From assembly GCA_025362495.1 (NCBI GenBank), contig JANYGI010000063.1:1-64000 (forward strand): a stretch of 64,000 nucleotides of DNA, in the 5' to 3' direction. Below the pieces are notes generated by a model. It did no database searches and was not told the DNA's origin. It was given only the letters and a program-made list of their open reading frames with translations. This document shows positions 55,247-58,414 of the stretch, in pieces; positions within the stretch are counted from its first letter, which is position 1; the number at the start of each line of letters is the position of its first letter. This DNA is from Byssovorax sp. (lineage in GTDB: Bacteria > Myxococcota_A > Polyangia > Polyangiales > Polyangiaceae). Position numbers and translations under genes: made by a program.

Positions 55247-55375
55247 GATCGGCGGCGGAGCGTAGTCGCGTCGCGCGAAAGAGGCGACGTCGATGCGCGC
55301 GAAGGGCTCTTCATCGACGACGAGTTGGCCTCTTTCTGGGCCATCTTCGCGCCGATCGATAGAGTGCCCGTCAGC

Positions 55376-56476
55376 GTGAAGATCCTTCCTCCCAAGCCTT
55401 TTCTCGCCCTCTTGATCACCGCGCTCGCCGTGGGGCACGCCGCTCCCGCCCGCGCATTCTCGCCGTTCCTCGTCGTCCCGGATCCGGCCGTGGCCGAGGC
55501 CTCGCCCGCCTACCGCTACGCGAACATGTCGGACAGCGAGGCCTTCGAAGAGCTCGATCGGCGCAAGATCCTCTACACGAAGCTCGACGCTACGCCGGGC
55601 GTGCGGGCGCCAATCCGGCTCACGGGGAGGCTCCACGGCGTGTACATCCACTCGTCGCTGCCGCCGGACGAGCGGGTCAAGACGATGTTCGAGATCCTCG
55701 ACGCGCGCCTCGCGCTGACGCTCGACGATTTCTCGGCGATCCTGGAGCGCCACGACATCGACGAGGTCGTTCACTTCACGATGTACCGGCCCAACGTGGG
55801 AGCGCCGACGCACGATGTGCAGGACGAGCCCGCGGCGCAGCGCGCGCCGACGACGCGGCCGCGCTCGTCGAACCTCAAGGCCTCTCCGCCGAAGGGCGCG
55901 CCGCAGAAGGCGCCGCCGAGCCTGGGGGCCAAAGGCACCCTCGACGCGAGCAAGCACCTCGACGTCGGGCCGGTGAGCCTGAAGCAGAAGCCGGGCGATC
56001 CCGGGCCGAAGCCGGTGCTGATGGTGATGGGGAAGAAGCCTTTGCAAGCGCCGCCGGCCGCGCAAAAGCCCCTCGCCGCGCCGGCCTCGAAGGCGACTCT
56101 GCCGCTCCACGCGCGATTGCCTCTCACCGTGGCGCGCCGCGATCCCCAGCTCTCCGGGCTCCACCAGACGACCTGGGCGCCCCCGGGGACACGCCACCCG
56201 GCCGGCCTCGCCATCGACGTGGGCCTGCTCCACAAGAAAGACGGCCGCTGGCTCAGCGTCGCGCGCCAGTTTCAGGGGCACATCGGCGACAAGACCTGCG
56301 GTGACGGCGCCCATGTTCCCGAGTCGCCCGATGCCAAGGAGCTGCGAGCGCTGGTGTGCGAAGCGTCGGATCTCGGCGTCTTCACCTACGTGCTCACGCC
56401 CGACTACAACGCCGCCCACGTGGATCACTTCCACATGGAAATAAAGCCAGGCGTGCGCTGGTTCCTCTATCACTGA
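55376..56476 (+). CDS. secreted extensin-C/VanY-like protein
   Basis: 366 residues from GTG 55376 (signal peptide KILPPKPFLALLITALAV ... ARA); a GTG four codons earlier is also possible. N-domain ~30-150, a Pro/Lys/Ala linker (150-240), then a C-domain with RHPAGLAIDVG and YNAAHVDHFHMEIKPG. These supply the H-x-x-x-x-x-x-D and H-x-x-H-x-H type zinc residues of the extensin-like C-terminal family, related to D-Ala-D-Ala peptidases. Likely a periplasmic peptidoglycan-active or cell-wall protein. It lies directly before two Pro/Tyr-repeat lipoprotein genes. Confidence 0.8.
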   Translation: MKILPPKPFLALLITALAVGHAAPARAFSPFLVVPDPAVAEASPAYRYANMSDSEAFEELDRRKILYTKLDATPGVRAPIRLTGRLHGVYIHSSLPPDERVKTMFEILDARLALTLDDFSAILERHDIDEVVHFTMYRPNVGAPTHDVQDEPAAQRAPTTRPRSSNLKASPPKGAPQKAPPSLGAKGTLDASKHLDVGPVSLKQKPGDPGPKPVLMVMGKKPLQAPPAAQKPLAAPASKATLPLHARLPLTVARRDPQLSGLHQTTWAPPGTRHPAGLAIDVGLLHKKDGRWLSVARQFQGHIGDKTCGDGAHVPESPDAKELRALVCEASDLGVFTYVLTPDYNAAHVDHFHMEIKPGVRWFLYH

Positions 56477-56719: not shown

Positions 56720-56802
56720 GTGGGGGCGGGCACACTCGGCGTTCATGCCGGGTCGGCTCCGTACCCGGGCGTTCGATGCTATCGAACGGGGAGAATCGGA
56801 AC

Positions 56803-57321
56803 ATGAGCTCTTTCATGAAGACCGCTGCATTGTTCGTCGTCTCGGCTCCTCTGGCGCTCGCCGGTTGCATGGCCGCGGAAGACCAGGGAGACAGCGCGCA
56901 GGACGCCAGCGAGGCACTCTGCACGTACAGTGAGCCGGCCCCGGCGGTGCCTTGCCCCGCCACGCCGTTCAACCCGCCCACGTTCGCGGCCCCGGTGACC
57001 CCGGCGCCGAATTACCCGGCTCCTCACTTCGGGGCGCCCATTCACGAAGCGCCGGTTTACCGGGCTCCGGCGTACCAGGCGCCGACCTATCAGAACCCCG
57101 GCCAGGTTCCCGTCATCGAGGCGCCCACCTACGAAGCGCCGAATTACCCCGGGCCGACGTTCAAGGCTCCCGTGTACGACGCGCCCATCTACGACGCGCC
57201 GACGTTCCTTGCGCCCATCTACGAGCAGCCCACCTACGACTCGTGCAAGACGCTGCCGGCGCGCGATCTCGCGCCCTGTCAGCAGGCCGCGGCGCTCCCC
57301 ATCGGTGACACGTACCCGTGA
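56803..57321 (+). CDS. Pro/Tyr pentapeptide-repeat lipoprotein 1
   Basis: 172 residues. Lipobox LALAGC (Cys22), an acidic stretch (AAEDQGDSAQDASEA), then about 14 pentapeptides of the form A-P-x-(Y/F)-x from residue ~65 to 145 (APVYR APAYQ APTYQ ... APVYD APIYD). Two cysteines before the array and two after it (CTYSEPAPAVPCP, SCKTLPARDLAPC) could clamp it. The rod-like Pro/Tyr array recalls plant cell-wall proline-rich proteins (PPVYK type). Probably an outer-membrane-anchored structural or adhesive filament; this is inference. Paralogue follows at 57705. Confidence 0.8.
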   Translation: MSSFMKTAALFVVSAPLALAGCMAAEDQGDSAQDASEALCTYSEPAPAVPCPATPFNPPTFAAPVTPAPNYPAPHFGAPIHEAPVYRAPAYQAPTYQNPGQVPVIEAPTYEAPNYPGPTFKAPVYDAPIYDAPTFLAPIYEQPTYDSCKTLPARDLAPCQQAAALPIGDTYP

Positions 57322-57334
57322 GTGCTCGCCGCGG

Positions 57335-57364
57335 CGCATCGTCCGCTCCCGGGCGGGCGATGCG
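57335..57364 (+). terminator. hairpin after Pro/Tyr lipoprotein 1
   Basis: Arms cgcatcg (57335-57341) and cgatgcg (57358-57364), extended inward by ccgc/gcgg pairing. It lies 14 bases after the stop and has no U-run. Confidence 0.5.
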
Positions 57365-57372
57365 TCGTGATC

Positions 57373-57424
57373 GTCACTCATCACCTCGGGCGGCCTGCGT
57401 GGGCCACGCGAGACGATGAGTGAC
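57373..57424. repeat. extended hairpin in the gap between the two Pro/Tyr genes
   Basis: Perfect 10-bp outer arms gtcactcatc (57373-57382) and gatgagtgac (57415-57424), with inner pairs ctcg/cgag and ggcc/ggcc, giving a nested stem of about 18 bp in 52 bases. It may be a second terminator, a palindromic repeat or an RNA element. The rest of the 383-base gap 57322-57704 holds no gene. Confidence 0.6.
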
Positions 57425-57589
57425 TGTCCCGTTCGAAGCGTCCCTTTCTGACGGGCGGCGGCGGTGCGAGCCTCGGTATCGCGCCGCCGTCGCCCGTCAT
57501 TTCCGCTCGACGGCGCGTCCCTCCGGGTGCTCCGCGGTCCGGCGATTTCTCCGCTCGGCGAGCCACGGTGAGGCCTCGAGCGCTGGCAT

Positions 57590-57626
57590 GGAGGTGACAT
57601 CGGTCCGCCGGCATCGAATGAAAGGG
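57590..57626 (+). promoter_or_regulatory. conserved upstream block, copy 2
   Basis: Reads ggaggtgacatcggtccg then ccggcatcgaatgaaaggg; same cores and spacing as copy 1. It lies 79 bases before the ATG of the second Pro/Tyr lipoprotein, and the shared 16-mer tcgaacggggagaatc recurs at 57683-57698. The matching distance suggests a common promoter, perhaps for an alternative sigma factor. Confidence 0.6.
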
Positions 57627-57704
57627 GAGGCGAGGCCGCCCGGCCTTCGAGCCGGACTGGCATCGTCACAGCACCAATAACCTCGAACGGGGAGAATCAG
57701 AATC

Positions 57705-58259
57705 ATGCGTTACTTCACGAAGATCGCCGCGATGTTCGCCCTCTCGACCTCTTTTGCGCTCACCGGCTGCCTGGCAGCGACGGATGACGGAGCGACGGAC
57801 GAGGCCCTCGGGCAAACGGATGAGGCCCTCGACGCGTCGGAGGGCTGCAGCGCTCCCGTGACGAACCCGCCGGTCTACACGCCTCCCACGTTCTCGGCGC
57901 CCGGCTACCACGCGCCGCACTACGGAGCTCCGCACTACGCGCCGCCAGTCTACCACGCTCCCCAGTTCCAGCCGCCCACCTACCAGCAGCCGGGGTATTC
58001 GCAGCCGTCGTACCCGCAGCCCGGGTATTCGCAGTCGTACCAGCAGCCCGCGTACCCGCAGGCGCCGTGTCAGCAATCGTCGCCTCCGCAGTCGTACGAC
58101 GCCCCCTCCGGGGGCGAGGCGCCGAGCTACCCTGGTCCGACGTACCCGGCGCCCGTCTACCCGGCGCCGATTTACCAGGCGCCCGTCTACCCCGGCCTCG
58201 GCGCGCCGGTGCCCGGCTATTCGCCGCCTCGCGTCACCGTGATCGTCGTGGTCAATTGA
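57705..58259 (+). CDS. Pro/Tyr pentapeptide-repeat lipoprotein 2
   Basis: 184 residues. Lipobox FALTGC (Cys22), an acidic spacer with a repeated (D/Q)TDEAL motif, then Pro/Tyr units (APGYH APHYG APHYA PPVYH ... QPGYS QPSYP QPGYS) over residues ~60-120, a Ser/Gln break, and a second array (YPGPTYPAPVYPAPIY). The C-terminus PPRVTVIVVVN is a beta strand absent from paralogue 1. Repeats are richer in Gln and Pro than in copy 1, so the two have diverged. GGGGAGAAT precedes the ATG. Probable surface structural protein. Confidence 0.8.
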   Translation: MRYFTKIAAMFALSTSFALTGCLAATDDGATDEALGQTDEALDASEGCSAPVTNPPVYTPPTFSAPGYHAPHYGAPHYAPPVYHAPQFQPPTYQQPGYSQPSYPQPGYSQSYQQPAYPQAPCQQSSPPQSYDAPSGGEAPSYPGPTYPAPVYPAPIYQAPVYPGLGAPVPGYSPPRVTVIVVVN

Positions 58260-58414
58260 GAGCTCCCCGGCGCGCGGCGGCTCGACGGGACCACTGAAAC
58301 GCTGAGCAGCGCTCTCGCCCTTCGCGAAGAAATCTTCTCGGGACACGCAACTCCTCGGGCCGCCGTGTCGATTGATGTTCATGACGCCGAGCTCCGGCGT
58401 CGTGGAGGTGGCCA

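Follow-up and report, generated by a model that had tools for sequence, protein, structure and literature searches.

The closest described systems to the proteins considered here are the proline-rich proteins (PRPs) of plant walls, in which a signal peptide precedes Pro-rich repeats that contain Tyr and have a five-residue period. PPVYK is given as the class motif of plant PRPs, and some of these proteins, the hybrid PRPs, add a Cys-rich C-terminal region (PMC9549341). Extensins are likewise exported, Pro-rich chains containing Tyr, with Tyr-x-Tyr as their cross-link motif (PMC4275275). Among bacteria, FibA and other matrix lipoproteins of Myxococcus xanthus are myxobacterial lipoproteins, some of which reach the cell exterior (PMC3222651). 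Lipoproteins that are also ribosomally synthesized and post-translationally modified peptides (RiPP-lipoproteins) exist as well; MNIO precursors of a related motif have been described in Myxococcota, and a CPACGMG-type motif is a feature of the MNIO-type RiPP-lipoproteins (PMC12636315). Here we describe two adjacent genes, copy 1 and copy 2, in a stretch of 64,000 nucleotides from Byssovorax sp. (GenBank assembly GCA_025362495.1, contig JANYGI010000063.1, positions 1 to 64,000), which is hereafter called the window. Each gene encodes a lipobox protein with a Pro/Tyr pentapeptide array. Judged from sequence comparison, their leader belongs to a family of the Polyangiaceae with exchangeable low-complexity cargo, which is new here.

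Two tandem genes and their relatives in another genus

Both copies have the same layout, in which a lipobox leader is followed by an acidic linker and then by a five-residue P-x-[YF]-x-x array. The leaders, MSSFMKTAALFVVSAPLALAGC in copy 1 (ending LAGC) and MRYFTKIAAMFALSTSFALTGC in copy 2 (ending LTGC), read as lipoprotein leaders with a Lys/Arg n-region, a hydrophobic core and a lipobox at residues 19-22. The arrays comprise 14 P-x-[YF]-x-x units in copy 1 and 18 in copy 2, and both are interrupted. When each mature sequence was shuffled 5000 times, P-x-[YF]-x-x-P steps (13 and 15 observed) averaged 0.7 and 0.9 with a maximum of 5 in either case; P-P pairs at a distance of five (20 and 20) averaged 6.0 and 7.6, with maxima of 15 and 16; and [YF]-[YF] pairs at the same distance (11 and 15) averaged 1.7 and 2.3, with maxima of 7 and 8. 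These shuffle tests and the coordinates bear out the original prediction, made from the letters of the window, of two adjacent genes that each carry a lipobox and a five-residue Pro/Tyr-Phe array. Cysteines also flank the array of copy 1 as predicted, C40 and C51 standing before it and C148 and C159 after it; copy 2 has C48 before its array and C122 within. Because Pro and Tyr codons are mixed within the arrays and tandem-repeat matches reach 63-83% at the DNA level, the arrays are old as DNA, and the mixed codons and low unit identity rule out recent slippage as their origin. A third gene of this kind was not found in the window genome (G000; 10.84 Mb, 240 contigs, 96.56% complete), either by a search with copy 1 at E up to 10 or by a leader search, and neither copy has an NCBIfam match above cut-off.

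The original prediction implied homologues outside the strain, and these were found. In single-sequence searches, copy 1 finds copy 2, and copy 2 matches 13 of the 108 family genomes at E 0.001 and finds a genome of another genus (G066, a single contig of 16,040,666 bases). Among the loci inspected, this is the one genome besides the window genome with leader and Pro/Tyr array together, in three proteins, L062, L063 and L064 (first recorded as L030, L013 and L026). A profile of the five sequences matches 57 of the 183 order genomes at E 1e-4, the five members scoring 108-224 bits and the next best match 51.0. In a 377-genome sample of the phylum, in which G066 is not among the matching genomes, 22 genomes match at E 1e-7 and none but the window's two proteins exceeds 52.5 bits. 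At the loci inspected, mostly chosen through repeat-score and lipobox filters, the weaker matches (24-52 bits) are other low-complexity proteins or wrong frames. Among the matches opened, the order-wide search for a lipobox with a five-residue Pro/Tyr period, proposed together with the prediction, found leader and array in 2 of 183 genomes. One of the relatives, L063 (9852-10730), is a Pro/Tyr array lipobox protein with a Cys-rich tail and 15 Cys after the lipobox.

The arrays of copy 1 and L062 align gaplessly over 92 residues, of which 54 are identical in register, against 38 at most when one array is shifted by fives. The spacer residues alone (those other than P, Y and F) behave in the same way, with 23/55 identical in register and at most 14/55 shifted. 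The two window copies lack such a register, with no more than 31/92 identical at full length. Unit by unit, copy 1 and L062 agree on P in 14/14 and on Y or F in 13/14 (the same residue in 11/14), and the three other positions are kept in 7/14, 4/14 and 10/14, the last being mostly Ala before the next Pro. The aligner can help P to match P, and the gapless register test is the cleaner result. The ratio of nonsynonymous to synonymous differences per site (pN/pS) for whole genes is 0.70 between copies 1 and 2, 0.70 between copy 1 and L062, and 0.84 between copy 2 and L062; after the leader the corresponding values are 0.72, 0.67 and 1.04. In these comparisons it is the pattern that is constrained, not the sequence as a whole.

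The statement that the pair kept its repeat period and upstream DNA also stands, with P-x-[YF]-x-x in both and upstream regions identical at 91 of 128 positions, including a 51-nt block at 80% and a 20-nt ribosome-site block at 95%. Upstream of copy 1 and L062, 66 of 129 positions are identical. Judged by their flanks the two genes look like a tandem pair, but the array of copy 1 is nearer to that of the other genus; this discord could be explained either by gene conversion in the flanks or by a replaced array in copy 2. The suggested check of copy number and neighbours gave two copies in the window genome and three in G066 but no neighbour in common, and a conserved operon was rejected: the three G066 loci and three loci of genus g47 (L065, L066 and L068) were compared with the window by eye from protein ends, no domain search being made there, and none of them had a neighbour common with it.

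A leader family with exchangeable cargo

A hidden Markov model (HMM) of 20 leaders, built from the family's own members, matches 17 of the 183 order genomes at E 1e-5, all in the Polyangiaceae; the matches of copies 1 and 2 hold by construction, both being in the A4 and A6 alignments. By eye, the family with low-complexity cargo comprises 27 proteins in 13 genomes of four genera. Its members, the window genes included, have the leader, an acidic linker and low-complexity cargo in common, while the array chemistry differs between them. Array types, again judged by eye, are AP-x-Y, PPVY, GGYGG, GGFGW and RPWGWGG, mostly Gly/Pro- and aromatic-rich. Sixteen leader matches were opened in G066, and 14 of them have low-complexity cargo (L062, L063, L064, L101, L102, L104-L110, L165 and L166), among which L110 is a mixture of APSQY repeats followed by GGLGYGG with Cys. 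The six genomes of genus g43 (G084-G089) have Gly-rich arrays on the leader, most ending in GRG(Y/F)-rich tails, and the five genomes of genus g47 (G099-G103) have WGG/RPWG arrays. Several sister proteins have GCW- or GCGW-like ends. Tyr, Phe and Trp make up 5-35% of the last 60 residues in the 21 proteins measured of the 27. The lowest values belong to L107, L113 and L063, the last of which terminates in its Cys-rich tail. Most arrays share aromatics placed at regular intervals along an extended or flexible chain, and Cys is often present.

Some other proteins matched by the leader look ordinary, among them L111 and L112 in G066 and L073, L099, L103 and more elsewhere; in G007 the cargo reading gave nothing clear. 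Since both ordinary and varied cargo occur on the same leader, the leader is the family trait and the cargo changes. As the same leader carries other low-complexity arrays, the property kept across cargo is not a fold. With quite different arrays on the same leader in related genera, the question shifts from PRPs to a leader family with exchangeable arrays. L073, L099 and L103 (from G088, G101 and G099) are small proteins on the same leader with a common NSGWPGTRGC motif, and L073 has no Pfam match. The Sorangium-like g47 relatives L065, L066, L068, L075 and L076 (from G099, G101, G103, G102 and G100) have WGG/RPWG arrays of very different repeat number, and L065, L066 and L068 lie in an equivalent position adjoining apparent branched-chain amino-acid genes, as judged by eye.

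The original prediction likened the pair to plant PRPs. The five-residue Pro/Tyr period holds, and PPVY is present twice in copy 2 and KPPVY in L064; kinship is not supported. Pfam Extensin_1 scores 25.1 bits for copy 1 and 22.1 bits for copy 2 against a cut-off of 105. Among eight proteins searched, L064 reaches 27.7 bits with Extensin_1 and six have no Pfam match at E 0.01. Lys makes up 1% and 0% of the mature sequences, Tyr-x-Tyr, PPVYK and SPPPP are absent from copies 1 and 2, and no pair of Y/F residues at a distance of 2 occurs in copies 1, 2, L062 or L063. Membership in the extensins or PRPs was rejected on the Pfam scores, the missing Tyr-x-Tyr and the near absence of Lys. Unlike plant PRPs, the window copies also have a bacterial lipobox and no demonstrable sequence kinship. 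The Cys-rich end of L063 has its likeness in hybrid PRPs (PMC9549341), and the GGYGG array of sister L101 in plant glycine-rich proteins (GRPs), although its match to Pfam GRP (E 0.0081, 17.2 bits) is below the cut-off of 30 and its leader is of the lipoprotein type. With regard to hydroxyproline, which together with wall insolubilisation characterizes plant PRPs, PF13640 (2OG-FeII oxygenase) has 4 and 6 matches in the two genomes, a count that does not imply action on the window proteins. The plant resemblance is thus compositional only; on these tests the window proteins are not PRPs and may at most work like one.

Similar arrays also occur in unrelated bacterial proteins. In a named genome collection, three loci gave short segments of 33-66% identity: L009 (a Rhodospirillales metagenome-assembled genome, MAG), L010 (Cupriavidus basilensis) and L011 (an Oscillospiraceae MAG). 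L009 and L011 have period-five Pro/Tyr arrays of QPxY/QPTY type without a window-type leader. In another family of the order (G121), L034 (1417-2664) has a signal peptide, no lipobox and a long TQPNYGQPTY array. The pentapeptides of L009, L011 and L034 resemble those of the window, but these are different proteins that lack the family lipobox leader. Because of such cases, an array alone is no evidence of kinship; the Pro/Tyr array arises more than once, and it is the combination of leader and array that marks the family. L015 (1369-1959, G093), a putative exported protein with a possible lipobox SASAC and a GQPGY array followed by a Cys-rich region but without the family leader, is possibly independent. 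A plasmid collection of 72,556 records gave 3 matches (28.8-40.3% identity, covering 38-53% of the query), which were put down to low complexity, and no relative of solved structure was found at E 0.01. The window genome also encodes a small Arg/Phe-rich protein (G000:C10:98887-99204; L029 1487-1804) with a signal peptide, ten PRFQ-type pentapeptides and no lipobox, which matches 16 of the 108 family genomes at E 1e-5, none but itself above 43.1 bits.

Upstream elements and feature coordinates

An upstream motif, TGACA-N17-AA[GT]GAA, was spotted by eye and then counted. The exact pattern was counted in 183,007 bases on both strands, where it occurs four times, and never with another spacing from 10 to 25. 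The occurrences lie at -115 and -110 of window copies 1 and 2 and at -111 and -107 of L062 and L063 in G066. Four of the five leader plus Pro/Tyr genes therefore have the element in common, the upstream region of L064 being without it, and among 24 upstream regions of leader-family genes it is exact in only those four. L110 has a looser version (TGACA at -128, N17, then AAGAGA), and L099 and L103 have TGACA at -113. In its geometry the element is like a -35/-10 promoter whose second hexamer is weak, but a sigma-70 consensus scan gave no match. A sequence-only model of the four upstream regions, which with four training sequences would miss weak sites, scores its own sites at 64-93 bits and the best other site in five genomes at 19.5 bits, and on these scores a general regulon for the region was rejected. 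A conserved 5' leader structure was also rejected, the z-scores being only -0.26 to -1.31 in four sequences.

The hairpin after copy 1 folds with -45.9 kcal/mol for 57319-57400 (z -2.94), and no such hairpin follows copy 2 (58257-58340, z +0.92). A terminator scan found no T-tailed terminator. The hairpin after copy 1 and a separate upstream element before each gene make it probable that the two copies lie on separate transcripts. Between the genes, 57319-57500 contains three inverted repeats, of which the first two overlap and one is the hairpin at the stop codon of copy 1. Coordinates are collected in Table 1.

Table 1. Positions in the window of the two genes and of the features assigned to them
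Feature	Coordinates	Strand	Basis
Copy 1, lipobox protein with Pro/Tyr pentapeptide array, 172 aa	56803..57321	+	Open reading frame (ORF) and array statistics; homologue L062 in G066
Copy 1 signal peptide and lipobox LAGC	56803..56868	+	Read from translation; leader HMM 58.3 bits (A4), 49.5 bits (A6)
Copy 1 array, residues 56-147	56968..57243	+	Gapless alignment to L062 over 92 residues
Copy 2, lipobox protein with Pro/Tyr pentapeptide array, 184 aa	57705..58259	+	ORF and array statistics
Copy 2 signal peptide and lipobox LTGC	57705..57770	+	Read from translation; leader HMM 75.4 bits (A4), 66.1 bits (A6)
Copy 2 array, about residues 54-170, broken by a Gln/Ser-rich stretch	57864..58214	+	Read from translation, array statistics
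Promoter-like element of copy 1 (TGACA-N17-AATGAA), 115 bp before start codon	56688..56715	+	Pattern count, upstream-region model
Promoter-like element of copy 2 (TGACA-N17-AATGAA), 110 bp before start codon	57595..57622	+	Pattern count, upstream-region model
Conserved block with ribosome-binding site (GGGGAGAA) of copy 1	56782..56801	+	Family D4; identity to the copy 2 block 95%
Conserved block with ribosome-binding site of copy 2	57683..57702	+	Family D4
Strong hairpin from copy 1 stop codon, no T run	57319..57380	+	Folding energy

Predicted envelope location and possible functions

Sorting of myxobacterial lipoproteins offers a guide to location. In M. xanthus, Lys at +2 was reported in 8 of 12 inner-membrane lipoproteins and Ala at +7 in 7 of 10 matrix lipoproteins, and FibA A27D was retained in the outer membrane (PMC3222651). 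The lipobox is LAGC or LTGC in the two copies and the three G066 relatives, in which residue +2 (M, L, M, M, V) is not Lys and residue +7 (Q, D, D, D, G) is not Ala. Under the M. xanthus findings, these residues favour an outer-membrane location for the window proteins. They differ from the M. xanthus matrix lipoproteins in the absence of the +7 Ala signal, and no repeat array is described for the latter in the available part of that source (PMC3222651). AlphaFold2 gave no fold (mean pLDDT 46.9, pTM 0.12) from a two-sequence alignment.

The simplest reading is an outer-membrane sticker-spacer chain that forms an adhesive or protective layer, or a periplasmic spacer if the chain faces inwards. 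Both copies would be exported by Sec, lipidated on the lipobox cysteine and then transported to the outer membrane. The extended, unfolded chain would alternate stiff spacers, with Pro in every fifth residue, and stickers, with Tyr or Phe in every fifth, and many weak aromatic contacts with one another, with envelope polysaccharide or with surfaces could build a sticky or space-filling layer, to which the cysteines may contribute disulfides. We infer lipidation, outer-membrane location, disorder in the cell, sticker-spacer action and an adhesive or protective role from the sequences, and favour outer-membrane-anchored, disordered sticker-spacer chains in a sticky or space-filling layer only tentatively. 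Several points weigh against this. The sorting findings come from another order than the window host, and that source reports no conservation among outer-membrane lipoproteins (PMC3222651). In many sister leaders the lipobox is weaker (GAGC or GTGC, for example), and in L076 of G100 its Cys is missing, which makes lipidation less certain across the wider family than for the window genes. Low pLDDT from a shallow two-sequence alignment is possible for folded proteins too. The pN/pS values suggest weak constraint, the absence of conserved neighbours gives no pointer to a pathway, and arrays of this kind arise in unrelated proteins. Some cargo is also poor in aromatics, with 5% Tyr, Phe and Trp in the last 60 residues of L107 and 7% in L113 of G088, which runs off its contig end and is incomplete.

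Other explanations were weighed against the same evidence. Outer-membrane lipoproteins face the periplasm by default, and Pro-rich rods in TonB-like proteins touch peptidoglycan or span the periplasm. With its lipid in the inner leaflet of the outer membrane, a Pro-rich rod could likewise span or fill the periplasm and touch peptidoglycan as a spacer or tether, an explanation that we consider rather unlikely. It draws on this default orientation, on Pro in every fifth residue, which would give an extended chain, and on the upstream gene at 55325-56476 with an Extensin-like_C domain (PF06904; 35.8 bits, cut-off 25.4), which we take to be related to peptidoglycan peptidases. However, no neighbour of this type appears at the three G066 loci (gene lists read by eye, no domain search being made), neither copy ends in Lys as Braun's lipoprotein does (copy 1 ends TYP and copy 2 VVN), a mere spacer need not keep an aromatic residue in nearly every unit, and the sister arrays are rich in Gly, Trp and Phe and are not rods. 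The name Extensin-like_C and the resemblance of the arrays to plant proteins probably coincide by chance. A further possibility is orphan genes of low complexity that evolve fast, have little or no present function and persist through drift and slippage in GC-rich genomes. They would fit the narrow distribution of leader plus Pro/Tyr array (two of 183 order genomes, among the matches opened), the lack of conserved neighbours seen by eye and the weak constraint. We regard this as unlikely in view of the gapless register of 92 residues in which P and Y/F hold their positions between genera, the mixed codons within units, the specific upstream element in four of five genes and the 14 leader paralogues in G066.

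A covalently cross-linked network as in plant walls, with dityrosine and Cys disulfides, could give spores or fruiting bodies a tough coat. In its favour are the Tyr or Phe that nearly all units contain, the Cys around the copy 1 array, the 15 Cys of L063, the GCW- or GCGW-like ends of sisters and a single match to haem peroxidase (PF03098) above cut-off in either genome. Those matches are not near these genes (in G000 on another contig), and that of G000, in an open frame of 115 aa, spans 58 of the 530 positions of the profile; neither copy has Tyr-x-Tyr and there is no sign of developmental control, which makes the network improbable. A tyrosinase search gave no match in either genome, but its 14 controls gave none either, so the result does not establish absence. 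A conserved leader with a variable, often Cys-bearing core also looks like a precursor family, and a tailoring enzyme, for instance an MNIO, might then act on the array, as RiPP-lipoproteins and Myxococcota MNIO precursors are already described (PMC12636315). We hold this to be very improbable, as none of the five neighbouring ORFs tested is a tailoring enzyme (they are Extensin-like_C, two kinases, a beta-propeller repeat and one without a match), neither copy has a CPACG motif and the arrays are far longer than usual RiPP cores.

Among the matches listed in the open-licence PMC literature, no earlier description of these proteins or of the leader family was found. On the bolder and, in our estimate, distinctly unlikely view, the family is a Polyangiaceae counterpart of the plant structural wall proteome, in which one leader places PRP-, hybrid-PRP- and GRP-like arrays on the outer membrane, where they would jointly build an elastic coat, cross-linked or phase-separated, and swapping arrays would alter its chemistry. 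In such a coat, cationic aromatic arrays, for instance that of the FPRFQ protein of the window genome or of L106 of G066, could pair with acidic Tyr arrays. If the coat reading is true, a bacterium would have independently reached a plant-wall-like solution from Pro/Tyr and Gly/aromatic low-complexity proteins with a lipid anchor. The proteins would then be small, genetically encoded sticker-spacer polymers and would provide a handle on the cell covering of large-genome myxobacteria. Even with a humbler function, a leader family with exchangeable cargo is a clean case of the origin and diversification of structural repeat proteins.

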